Of a stretch of 64,000 nucleotides of DNA, positions 57,054-62,976 are shown in pieces. Made by a program: the position numbers and the translations under genes. Position 1 is the first letter of the stretch; each line of letters begins with the position of its first letter. Source of the DNA: Pseudomonadota bacterium (GTDB taxonomy: Bacteria > Pseudomonadota > Alphaproteobacteria > UBA2136 > JASBTF01); the NCBI GenBank assembly GCA_030148545.1, contig JASBTF010000002.1, positions 299,218-363,217 of the forward strand. Reading direction: 5' to 3'. The notes under the pieces are model-generated. The model did not search any database and was not told where the DNA came from. It was given only the letters and a program-made list of their open reading frames with translations.

Positions 57054-57380
57054 ATGCACAATGCTATCACGGCTCAATCTACAAGCTTACCCAGTAAGGC
57101 TTTGCTGAAAAAATGGGTAGACTTTATTCGTAAAGTTTCTACTTGTAATGCTCGTGCTTGCACAGCTCAATCTACTGTTGATTTGCCAACAGAGCTGAAA
57201 ATTAATGGTCTGGATATTAAAGCCCAGCAAGCTGCTTATCACAATTTGCTTAATTCTTGTCGCAAAGTTTTGAGCAAAAAGAACTTAGCTGGTCGCATTA
57301 GTATCAAACTTATTGATGTTGATCATGTTGCTGGTTACCACCCAGCTTTGCAGGTTCAATTGCATGATGTGAGAGCCTGA
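57054..57380 (+). CDS. Hypothetical 108-aa protein between ruvA and ruvB
   Basis: Complete ORF with GGAGATATAG upstream; no recognised family. Confidence 0.6.
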   Translation: MHNAITAQSTSLPSKALLKKWVDFIRKVSTCNARACTAQSTVDLPTELKINGLDIKAQQAAYHNLLNSCRKVLSKKNLAGRISIKLIDVDHVAGYHPALQVQLHDVRA

Positions 57381-58715: not shown

Positions 58716-60042
58716 ATTTAAGCAACGGCGACCAAGCGGGGTCGCTGGCATTGCTTGGGGTTTCCACCTTACGCAAGTTATAACCAGTCAGGTCAATGGT
58801 GTAGATATGGGTATCGTTACCTTCCTGACGGGCGAAGGAAATCACACGACCATTTGGTGACCACGTTGGTGATTCATCGAGGAAACTATCGGTCAGCAGG
58901 CGCTCTTCGCGGCCTTCAGGGTCAATCACCCCAATGTGGAAGGTGCTGCCAAGTTGCTTCACAAACGCAATCAGGTCGCCACGTGGGCTCCACACCGGTG
59001 CGTAGTAACGGCCTTTACCATAGGTCAGGCGGCGCACGCGGTTACCATCGGCATCCATAATGTACAGCGCAGGGCGGCCTCCACGGTCGGAGTTAAACAC
59101 AATTTGCTTACCATCGGGGCTAAAGCTTGGTGAGGTATCAATCCCGCGGTGGAAGGTCAGGCGCGTCAGCTGCTTGTTCTTCAGGTTCATGCGGTAAATT
59201 TCGCTATTGCCTTCATGGCCTTTGGTGAGTGTCATCACCACGTTTTTACCGTTTGGCGCAAAACGAGGAGAACTATTCAAGCCTTCAAAATCACCGACCA
59301 AACTTTGTTGACCCGTTGGCAGGTCTAGCAGGTATAAGCGCGGGAAACCGTTGGCATAGCTCATGTAAATAATCTTCTGCACATTCGGGTTAAAGCGCGG
59401 GGTGAGCACCAAGTGGCTACCATCGGTCAGGCATTGGTAGTTGCCACCATCTTGGTCCATCACGCACAGGCGTTTGCGGGTGTGGCCATTGGCTGCTGGC
59501 TCTTCACCAATATGCACAATACGCGTGGTAAAGTGGCCTTTTTCACCGGTTAAAGCTTCATAAACATCGTCGGAAATACGGTGCGCAATGTGGCGCCAAA
59601 ACTGGGCCGAAACCGTATAGCGGCGGCCTACCAGTTGCTTTTCGCCATGCACATCAAACAAGCGGTACTCTACCCGAATTTGCGGCTGGCCATCGGCACC
59701 ATACAACACCTGTACGTTACCGGAAATAAGCCCAACCACGTTAATCAACCGCCAATCAGCAAACTGTGGCCCTTGTTGAGCAACGGACTCAGCCGATTGC
59801 AAATACGCCTGCTGGTCGGTTACATCAAACAGGGTGGAGTTCAGCAAGTTGTTGGCCACTACTTGGCGCAGTTGCTCGCCCACTTGTTTGGCTTGGTCAG
59901 TATCGCCATAAAAGTCCACCAACGCCAGCGGCATTGGGTCGGTATTTGGGTTGTTCAAATCAATACGAATGCGCGCTTCGGCCGCAAGTGTGGAGCAGAG
60001 AATAAGTAGTGTAGAGAGAGCAATGCGTATCATGGTGAGCAC
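58714..60042 (-). CDS. tolB: Tol-Pal system protein TolB
   Basis: Signal peptide; propeller repeats SPRFAPNGKNVVMT, SPSFSPDGKQIVFNSDRGGRPALYIMDADG. Confidence 0.96.
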   Translation of the reverse strand: MLTMIRIALSTLLILCSTLAAEARIRIDLNNPNTDPMPLALVDFYGDTDQAKQVGEQLRQVVANNLLNSTLFDVTDQQAYLQSAESVAQQGPQFADWRLINVVGLISGNVQVLYGADGQPQIRVEYRLFDVHGEKQLVGRRYTVSAQFWRHIAHRISDDVYEALTGEKGHFTTRIVHIGEEPAANGHTRKRLCVMDQDGGNYQCLTDGSHLVLTPRFNPNVQKIIYMSYANGFPRLYLLDLPTGQQSLVGDFEGLNSSPRFAPNGKNVVMTLTKGHEGNSEIYRMNLKNKQLTRLTFHRGIDTSPSFSPDGKQIVFNSDRGGRPALYIMDADGNRVRRLTYGKGRYYAPVWSPRGDLIAFVKQLGSTFHIGVIDPEGREERLLTDSFLDESPTWSPNGRVISFARQEGNDTHIYTIDLTGYNLRKVETPSNASDPAWSPLLK

Positions 60043-60071: not shown

Positions 60072-60443
60072 TTAGCCTGAGAAGTATAAATCAAGCAGTT
60101 TAAATTTTTCGTATTTATCGCTCGGGATAGGCAGTGGAATTGCCTTACGCACCGCCCGCAGGATCGAGTTATCATAAAATTGATGGCCGCTGCTTTTTAC
60201 TATACGTAAACTTTTAATGGTACCGTCACGTTTTAGCGTCAGTTTTACCCGTGCCTTCAGCTGTTCGATGTTTGAAATTCCTGGCGGGCGAAGCCAATGG
60301 CGCTCAATATGCTGTTTAATAGCTTGTGTAGTTGTCACTATATCAATATTAGGTTGATTCAAATCAGGGTGAACCTGTGTCTCAGCAGTTACTGAAAAGA
60401 ATAATAGTGGAGTAATAAGTAAGTATTTTAACATGATTATCAA
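60072..60443 (-). CDS. Secreted stand-alone TolA C-terminal-domain-like paralogue
   Basis: Signal peptide MLKYLLITPLLFFSVTA, then IKQHIERHWLRPPG...YEKFKLLDLYFSG matching the TolA C-terminus of the upstream gene. Confidence 0.88.
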   Translation of the reverse strand: MIIMLKYLLITPLLFFSVTAETQVHPDLNQPNIDIVTTTQAIKQHIERHWLRPPGISNIEQLKARVKLTLKRDGTIKSLRIVKSSGHQFYDNSILRAVRKAIPLPIPSDKYEKFKLLDLYFSG

Positions 60444-60452
60444 CGTATATAG

Positions 60453-61346
60453 CTACCCAGCAAAATAAAGATCCAATAGCTTAAATTTTTCATATTTTTC
60501 GGTAGGAATTGGTAATGGCACTGCTTTACGCACCGCACGCAACAAAGATTTGTCATAAAATGGCTGACCACTTCCTTCTAATAAACGTAAACTTTGAATG
60601 GTGCCATCGCGGTTTAGCACTACCTCCACACGTGCCCGCAGCTGGTCACTGTTCAACAACCCCGGTGGGCGGTACCAATGGCGCTCAATATGCTGTTTAA
60701 TAATAGCCACCTCAGCCATTTCTGCCACGGTGAGCTGGCCCACAGGGGCATCGGCCACTACAGGTTTGGCAGCTACCTCGGCCTTGGCAGTATTTTCTTC
60801 TTCTAGGTTCTTAATAAAATCCAACGCAGCAAGAAAATCATCCGGGTTTTGCACCACCTTAGCCTCATCATCAACACTGCTAATCACCGCTTCTTTATCG
60901 GGTGTTTTATCCAGTTTTTCGGGGCGGCTTTCTTCAATTACTGGTGCAGGCTTAGGCTCAGGCTTTGGTTCTGGTTTGGCCGGTACCGGTTCGGGCTTGG
61001 TAATTTTTGGCGCTTCTGGCTTGCTTTCTGGCGGTGTAATAGCCTGTACCTCTGCTTTTGGTTCTTGCTTAACAGGCTCAGGTTTAGGCTGAGGCTTTGG
61101 CGCCTCCTTAGGTGCAGCACTGCTTTGCGTGCGCACAGGCTGTGGTGGGGTAGGCGGCTGCTTGGGCTGAGGCTTTGGCTCGTCGGGCGCTTTCTCGGTT
61201 ACCAAGCGCACGGTAATGGCTTTCACCTCTGGTTCAGGGAATAGCTCGGGGAACTGCACCATCAAAAATACCAGCATGGCGCCATGCAACAAAAGCGAAA
61301 AGATAAAGCCTTGGCGCATGGGGGTGGCTTGTGGAGTGTGGTACAT
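60453..61346 (-). CDS. tolA: TolA-like protein (TonB/TolA family)
   Basis: N-terminal TM, long Pro/Lys/Glu-rich linker, C-terminal TolA-III-like domain; downstream of tolR. Confidence 0.9.
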   Translation of the reverse strand: MYHTPQATPMRQGFIFSLLLHGAMLVFLMVQFPELFPEPEVKAITVRLVTEKAPDEPKPQPKQPPTPPQPVRTQSSAAPKEAPKPQPKPEPVKQEPKAEVQAITPPESKPEAPKITKPEPVPAKPEPKPEPKPAPVIEESRPEKLDKTPDKEAVISSVDDEAKVVQNPDDFLAALDFIKNLEEENTAKAEVAAKPVVADAPVGQLTVAEMAEVAIIKQHIERHWYRPPGLLNSDQLRARVEVVLNRDGTIQSLRLLEGSGQPFYDKSLLRAVRKAVPLPIPTEKYEKFKLLDLYFAG

Positions 61347-61364: not shown

Positions 61365-61802
61365 TTACTTTGGCGGAATCGTCACCAAGCCAATGTCGGT
61401 CAAACCTGCGGTTTGTAGCGCGCTCATCACTTGCATCACGCGACCGTAGGCAACACCTTGGTCGGCACGTAGCATAATGGCAGCGTTAGGCCGCACGTTA
61501 CGAATCGCCTGTAAGCGCTTGCCCAAATCAGCTTCATCCACCGGCTGGGTTTGCAAGTAAACTTCCCCGCCTGATTTAATACTTACCTGAATCGGCTCTT
61601 CAGTATCAGGCAGCGGTTTGTTCGCCGCTTCTGGCAGGTCAATGTCCACACCTTGGGTCAGCATGGGCGCGGTGATCATAAACACCACCAGCAATACCAA
61701 CATAACATCCACAAACGGCGTAACGTTAATGTCGCTCATTTGTGGTTTGCTGTAGCGAGAGCGGCGCCCACCGCGCCCGCCAGAAAGTAAAGGCCCAGCC
61801 AT
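61365..61802 (-). CDS. tolR: TolR/ExbD-family protein
   Basis: [38 protein letters not shown]. Confidence 0.96.
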
Positions 61803-62536
61803 TAAGCTGCCTCCTTTTTAGCGCTCGTCTTTTTTAGGCTTTTTACGTCGGCACCTTCATGCTGAATTTGCATGGCGGCCAAAAATTCATCGCAGAATGC
61901 TTCCAAACGTGCGCTGTAACGGCCCAAACTACTCGATAGACGGTTATACGCAATAACAGCAGGAATCGCTGCAAACAAGCCAATCGCCGTCGCAAGCAAA
62001 GCCTCGGCAATACCCGGTGCTACAACCGCCAAGCTGGTGTTGTTGGTAGCCCCAATGTTCTGGAAACTATTCATAATACCCCACACAGTACCCAGCAAAC
62101 CAATAAACGGCGCGCTAGATGCCACAGTGGCAAGGAAAGGTAGGCCTTTTTCCAAGTTTTCCATGTCGCGCGTCATCGCTGCGTCCATTAGGCGGCGGGC
62201 ACGCTCAATACCACTCACATGCAGCTGTACTTCGCCAGTGTCTACTGTGGCTTCGCGCTTGGCCTCCTGTGTGCCAATAATAAACAACCGCGCCAAAGCA
62301 TGGTCGGCATGTTCAGGTTTGGTATCTTGGTAGCTTTGGGCCACGCCACGGTTGTTCCAAAAGGCATCTTCAAATGCGCTTGCTTGCTTGTGCGCTTTGC
62401 CTAGTTGGCGGCCTTTGCTGAACCACATGCTCCATGCCCAAACGGACATACCCAGCAGCACCAACATCACTCCTTTAACAAAAATATCGGCTTGTAAAAA
62501 CAGACTCAAAATTGACAAATCGGTGGAGTGATCCAT
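61802..62536 (-). CDS. tolQ: TolQ/ExbB-family protein
   Basis: LATVASSAPFIGLLGTVWGIMNSFQNIGATNNTSLAVVAPGIAEALLATAIGLFAAIPAVIAYN. Confidence 0.96.
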   Translation of the reverse strand: MDHSTDLSILSLFLQADIFVKGVMLVLLGMSVWAWSMWFSKGRQLGKAHKQASAFEDAFWNNRGVAQSYQDTKPEHADHALARLFIIGTQEAKREATVDTGEVQLHVSGIERARRLMDAAMTRDMENLEKGLPFLATVASSAPFIGLLGTVWGIMNSFQNIGATNNTSLAVVAPGIAEALLATAIGLFAAIPAVIAYNRLSSSLGRYSARLEAFCDEFLAAMQIQHEGADVKSLKKTSAKKEAA

Positions 62537-62670: not shown

Positions 62671-62976
62671 TCATGCCGGCAGCGGCACATCGTGAATGAT
62701 ACGGCCATTATGGTCGTGCACCATCACGCGATTACCGCGAATAGTAACCCACAGGTCATGTTCGCTGGCATCTTGCAGCACACGAGCTAGCCGTGTGTCT
62801 ACGTTGATGATGCGTGATCCTTGGCGCTCGCTAAACAGTGTAGCCTGACCATTGCTGAGGAAAGTTACTTCCCCAGTGTAGTTATAGCTACGCAGTTCGC
62901 CAGTCGTGCCACAAGCAGTGACAGATACAGCCAACACGGCCACAGCGACGATTTTTTGAATTTTTTTTGTAAGCAT
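62671..62976 (-). CDS. Small putative lipoprotein
   Basis: Signal peptide with lipobox AVSVTAC. Confidence 0.65.
   Translation of the reverse strand: MLTKKIQKIVAVAVLAVSVTACGTTGELRSYNYTGEVTFLSNGQATLFSERQGSRIINVDTRLARVLQDASEHDLWVTIRGNRVMVHDHNGRIIHDVPLPA

Follow-up and report, generated by a model that had tools for sequence, protein, structure and literature searches.

The tol operon of this alphaproteobacterial genome (G000) contains, between tolA and tolB, a short gene for a predicted secreted protein that combines a signal peptide with TolA domain III (TolA-III); the gene very probably arose by one tandem duplication, as a chimera of the start of tolB and the end of tolA, and there is good reason to regard it as maintained by selection. 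It belongs to a grouping proposed here as secreted TolA-III solos, which have a signal peptide or lipobox and TolA-III only, and whose genes adjoin tolA. In the window, that is, the whole stretch of 64,000 nucleotides that was analysed, Pfam assignments give the operon order tolQ-tolR-tolA-solo-tolB on the minus strand, with the following features:

61802 to 62536, minus strand: tolQ, MotA/TolQ/ExbB family (Pfam)
61365 to 61802, minus strand: tolR, ExbD/TolR family (Pfam)
60453 to 61346, minus strand: tolA, 297 aa, with a transmembrane segment containing SLLLH, a P/K/E-rich domain II, and domain III
60456 to 60701, minus strand: TolA-III of tolA, probable donor of the duplicated 3' part (BLASTP, repeat search)
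60072 to 60434, minus strand: solo gene, coding for a 120-aa protein with TolA-III from the ATG at 60434; secretion predicted from sequence
60384 to 60434, minus strand: signal peptide MLKYLLITPLLFFSVTA of the solo, with probable SPase I cleavage after VTA, as read from the letters
60342 to 60434, minus strand: probably TolB-derived N-terminus of the solo (signal plus ETQVHPDLNQPNID), homologous to the N-terminus EARIRIDLNNPNTD of the neighbouring TolB
60075 to 60320, minus strand: TolA-III (TonB_2) domain of the solo (BLASTP, Pfam; model pLDDT 80, best fold match PDB 6s3w)
60081 to 60116, minus strand: C-terminal edge strand KYEKFKLLDLYF of the solo, the expected TolB-docking edge (PMC7391070, PMC4339652)
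58714 to 60042, minus strand: tolB, TolB_N plus beta-propeller (Pfam)
59938 to 60042, minus strand: 5' end of tolB (signal plus TolA-box region), probable donor of the solo N-terminus (protein alignment, repeat search)

The ATG at 60434 is a more plausible start than the alternative TTG at 60443, which would give 123 aa (ORF 60072-60443, minus strand); the gap between tolA and the solo measures 18 nt with the former and 9 nt with the latter. The sequence shows no clear promoter or ribosome-binding site that would serve the solo separately, and the gene may be translated through coupling to tolA. The signal is of Sec type (MLK-YLLITPLLFFSV-TA) and the remainder of the protein is TolA-III plus a short N-terminal stretch, from which we infer export as a free periplasmic TolA-III; the initial annotation had proposed such a secreted, free domain next to tolA, and the predicted signal together with the TonB_2 domain agrees with it. 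Its manual count of about 59 identical residues in 82 was reproduced exactly by BLASTP (59/82 identical, 73/82 positive, E=2e-45, solo against TolA C-terminus), and the further statement that the short protein has neither membrane anchor nor P/K/E-rich segment was confirmed in the sequence: the N-terminal transmembrane helix and the motor-binding SxxxH/SHLS motif (PMC12204202), which the neighbouring TolA carries as SLLLH, are both missing, as is the P/K/E-rich, periplasm-spanning domain II, and only about 21 residues separate the signal from domain III. The C-termini of solo and TolA both fall within the Pfam family TonB_2 (3e-16 and 2.5e-14), with a weak match to the TolA family. The solo passes the TonB_2 gathering cut-off (59.7 bits against 22 bits) and stays below the NCBIfam tolA_full equivalog cut-off of 59.45 bits with 49.9 bits, as does the intact TolA of this operon with 59.3. 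A structural model of the solo predicted from seven sequences has a mean pLDDT of 80, with low confidence in the N-terminal 25 residues, and its best fold match, 6s3w, is a TolA-III bound to a TolB peptide.

The solo lies in the middle of a 715-kb contig (contig 1) and differs from its tolA copy at 66 of 246 sites, which rules out an assembly artefact. The Tol-Pal set of the genome is complete; pal and cpoB reside elsewhere in the assembly (contig 3, L080:1249-2707, plus strand), apart from tolQRAB and unlike the usual contiguous tol-pal operon. The genome, which is 86% complete, yielded neither TonB nor any further TonB_2 domain, and this leaves TolB as the obvious partner of the solo. Just upstream of tolQ, the window also encodes a 101-aa putative lipoprotein (62671-62976, minus strand; lipobox TACG) with no Pfam match over cut-off, and a 108-aa ORF (57054-57380, plus strand) lies between ruvA and ruvB.

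An independent repeat search gave two direct repeats, the second of which the initial annotation had missed. The first repeat, 249 nt of TolA-III with 73% identity and a spacing of 381 nt, bears out the earlier description of the gene as a tandem paralogue of tolA; the second connects the 5' end of the solo with that of tolB (20 nt, 80% identical, spacing 404 nt), and the 23-nt difference in spacing is explained by one codon together with a spacer that is 20 nt longer ahead of tolB. At the protein level, the first 31 residues of the solo (MIRIALSTLLILCSTLAAEARIRIDLNNPNTD) align with the first 32 of TolB from its ATG (MLKYLLITPLLFFSVT-AETQVHPDLNQPNID) with a score of 53-55 that was reached in 0 of 5000 shuffles, a result that also holds for the mature part alone; the homology covers the signal plus about 14 mature residues. 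Among 997 ORF starts (first 50 residues; window and loci under comparison), the neighbouring TolB was the best match to the solo N-terminus, and the next-best matches were mostly TolB N-termini as well. On DNA, the tolB part by itself gives a modest signal (3/5000 codon shuffles, with two unrelated regions of the window scoring equally), so that the tolB derivation rests on protein similarity and on the register of the repeats. The TolB-like N-terminus and the repeats in register together indicate one tandem duplication of about 0.4 kb across the tolA/tolB junction; the duplicated segment would have extended from the start of TolA-III through the intergenic gap to about codon 35 of tolB, and would have left an intact tolA, a fusion of tolB 5' and tolA 3' ends, and an intact tolB, in this order. 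The solo is thus more than the TolA reduced to its C-terminal domain that the initial annotation described; the domain stems from tolA, and the N-terminus was most likely contributed by tolB. A mobile-element or phage origin was rejected: no phage homologue matched, and there was one weak plasmid TonB match. A viral fold library returned nothing significant.

Selection on the solo was assessed from the paralogue pair of solo and TolA-III (dN=0.18, dS=1.38, ratio 0.13), with dS near saturation. Relaxed selection with dN/dS near 1, which the initial annotation had named as evidence against its proposal, is not what was found; the ratio of 0.13 points to purifying selection and rules out a pseudogene. 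No ortholog of the solo was found in the searched genomes, which include none of its own genus or family. Solo and TolA are equally distant from about 28 other TolA proteins, which argues that the solo is not evolving faster than TolA, and the solo retains all 12 columns that are invariant in the TolA-III alignment of the sampled members of its order. The C-terminal edge strand KYEKFKLLDLYF is identical between solo and TolA at 12/12 residues, with synonymous changes in seven codons, while other parts have diverged more (beta1 4/8 and beta2 4/9 identical); this pattern suggests that the TolB edge is the part that was retained. Strand addition by TolB in E. coli and P. aeruginosa takes place at beta3, close to the C-terminal end of TolA, and that by colicin A at beta2 (PMC7391070). 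In E. coli TolA, replacement of residues near this end by proline (D418P, K420P) causes a tol phenotype, which was read as loss of the TolA-TolB complex (PMC4339652). As a caveat, gene conversion can mimic constraint, and a 27-nt identical run shared by solo and tolA (118/20000 shuffles, p=0.006) suggests some conversion between the two genes. Outside this conversion-like tract, dS is about 1.7 and dN 0.20, with no stop codon; since synonymous sites are nearly saturated while dN stays low, conversion cannot account for the conserved protein.

Proteins that correspond to the solo definition occur in other lineages as well (G012, G001, G213, G305, G402, G099 and G400, in addition to G000), with a three-domain form in G407 and G413. 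The initial annotation had suggested a search for the same tandem architecture in relatives, and comparable arrangements were found directly after tolA in two genomes of the same order, with a 118-aa solo (G012; lipobox SAGC) and a 115-aa solo (G001; lipobox IGGC); presence in the order is patchy (4 of 18 genomes). A third genome (G009; L033:4291-4722, minus strand) encodes, at a site outside the tol operon and beside an sdhB-like gene, a 143-aa secreted TolA-III/TonB_2 solo. In a genus of a distant alphaproteobacterial family (g92 in f88), five of the seven genomes examined show the order tolA-solo-tolB (G213, G305, G402, G099, G400), with three Sec signals, two lipoboxes, and a 4-nt overlap between solo and tolB; these solos are overall unlike TolA (dN 0.67-0.84), and the strand that faces TolB has diverged too. 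In four solos there is a lipobox whose Cys is not followed by Asp. Where computable and unsaturated, dN/dS between orthologs in the other lineages ranges from 0.10 to 0.28. The solos of different lineages may not share one common function. In G407 and G413, which belong to a different class and to a genus that we take to be Magnetococcus-like, a secreted protein of 420-445 aa with three TonB_2 domains is encoded between tolA and tolB (E=5e-65 and 1e-53):

L084:1715-2977, minus strand: signal peptide plus three TonB_2/TolA-III domains
L085:1407-2744, minus strand: signal peptide plus three TonB_2/TolA-III domains

Among the matches listed, this three-domain protein was not seen in the other 46 searched genomes of that class. 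For solos in tol operons generally, no further arrangement of the kind was noticed among the listed matches from evenly drawn sets of 385 genomes at class level and 398 at phylum level, a survey by domain matches that would miss divergent domains; no description of a three-domain secreted TolA-III protein was found in the literature searched.

The phylogenetic tree requires five label changes for the solo state, four of which are forced by well-supported branches, and a single clade of all solos was rejected (AU test, p=1e-4). Gene conversion could produce a false appearance of multiple origins in such a tree, and in the same-order genome G012 (L034:3645-4825, plus strand) tolA and its lipoprotein solo share a nearly identical final stretch of ca. 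110 nt, with upstream parts of the domain diverged; the 3' tract of 83/90 identical nt was matched in 1 of 20000 shuffles and is conversion-like. This was tested by cutting away the tract, after which one origin of the order's three solos was still rejected (p=0.023); for G000 and G012 alone it was not (p=0.17). A TolB-like N-terminus found no support in the other solos when compared to their own TolB, where available (the TolB of G012 was not located); that it occurs only in the G000 solo favours a separate birth of this gene. TolA-III is the force-delivering tip of the Tol machine, which holds the outer membrane together, and the recurrence of free tips with several independent origins makes it probable that solos do something useful, most likely tuning this machine. 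A different kind of duplication occurs in G201 (L078:2701-5128, minus strand), where two full-length tandem tolA genes (474 and 329 aa) precede tolB, with C-terminal domains identical over 89 residues; the pair was either kept alike by conversion or is very recent.

For the solo described here, competition with TolA for TolB is the most likely function, held with somewhat less than even confidence; combined with the chimeric birth, competition by a free TolA-III for TolB comes close to an even chance and forms the best explanation overall. In E. coli, TolA-III pulling on TolB frees Pal, the complex is weak (40-200 uM), and TolB binds TolA-III by strand addition (PMC7391070). The initial annotation had listed TolB and Pal among the partners of E. 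coli TolA-III; TolB binding stands, whereas direct binding of Pal is disputed (PMC7391070). The solo retains the domain's fold together with its C-terminal edge strand, where the N-terminal TolA box of TolB is added; being detached from the TolQ-TolR motor, it is expected to bind TolB but not to pull on it. At a comparable level it would occupy the box of TolB and slow the mobilisation of Pal, and in this way could temper or pace the force-driven release of Pal from TolB, and tune outer-membrane constriction and vesiculation. Co-expression of a signal-peptide::TolA-III fusion is an established route to release periplasmic protein from E. coli (PMC6195910), which indicates that the envelope is affected by TolA-III when it is free in the periplasm. 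This weakening of the envelope by forced export speaks against a helpful accessory role, in which the solo, bound to TolB (or CpoB), would support the cycle by maintaining TolB in solution, close to the outer membrane or free of Pal; such a role appears rather unlikely, in spite of the position of the solo beside tolB, the 4-nt overlap in g92 that would be expected for coupled, roughly balanced production, the three domains of the Magnetococcus-like version, and the lipoboxes without Asp, which are consistent with outer-membrane anchoring. The lipoprotein solos elsewhere hint at such anchored forms providing an outer-membrane parking site for TolB.

That the solo is a functionless by-product, a tolerated tandem duplication kept similar by conversion with tolA, would fit the duplication in register, the identical tracts in G000 and G012, and the patchy presence in the order; yet conversion leaves the low dN of the remaining domain unexplained, the solo does not evolve faster than TolA, its signal peptide is intact, and solos recur across several lineages, so that this reading is distinctly unlikely. 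It is improbable that the solo acts as a decoy, as the initial annotation had considered, by which a free periplasmic TolA-III captures phages or bacteriocins before they reach the energised TolA. The g3p protein and colicins do bind E. coli TolA-III via strand addition (PMC7391070), and the lipoprotein versions elsewhere could sit at the outer membrane; but the colicin A edge (beta2) has diverged between solo and TolA while the TolB edge is conserved, no phage homologue was found, no defence genes were recognised in the tol operon, and the decoy idea has no specific support here. PADLOC gave no match, and a defence system was rejected. Finally, the solo could have left the Tol system and serve a different partner, such as an outer-membrane transporter to which it would offer a TonB-like C-terminal domain; TolA-III is homologous in fold to the C-terminal domain of TonB, and the solo-like protein of G009 is encoded off the tol operon. 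This is most improbable, as a transporter could not be energised without a motor anchor, no TonB was found in the genome, and the solo retains TolA-specific residues and the strand.

A natural, repeatedly evolved free TolA-III would be a candidate regulator of force transduction by Tol-Pal, and it has been suggested in a review that vesicle production could be controlled by modulating the interactions of TolB with Pal or TolA (PMC7391070). More tentatively, Tol-Pal systems may repeatedly evolve a secreted, un-energised TolA-III regulator, which here would have taken the form of a tolB::tolA chimera acting as a competitive brake on Pal mobilisation. The locus also shows in readable form how a new secreted gene could arise in one step when a tandem duplication spans the boundary of two genes, with one parent giving the export signal and the other the domain. 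The domain family is known; the arrangement, the chimeric birth and the recurrence appear to be new, and the literature searched, which left most subscription journals outside its coverage, yielded no account of a free TolA-III encoded naturally within a tol operon.

Among known systems, the solo shares fold and family with TolA domain III of E. coli and P. aeruginosa (PDB 1LR0, 6S3W), whose C-terminal edge strand binds TolB; it differs as a free, predicted secreted protein with no domains I and II and a probably TolB-derived N-terminus. Its signal and first mature residues are homologous to the N-terminal TolA box of TolB, yet the strand-forming RIRID has become QVHPD, with a proline, and the propeller is missing; binding through this TolA-box-like segment of the solo is doubtful. 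The solo falls within the domain families of TonB C-terminal-domain proteins (Pfam TonB_2/TonB_C; NCBIfam TIGR01352), from which it is set apart by the lack of an inner-membrane anchor and a proline-rich segment, and by the location of its gene between tolA and tolB. The closest layout, a Sec signal followed by TolA-III, is that of the engineered RBP signal-TolAIII plasmid pTA3Y (Wan and Baneyx, 1998; cited in PMC6195910); pTA3Y is a laboratory construct for overproduction, whereas the solo is natural, located within the tol operon, and apparently constrained by selection.
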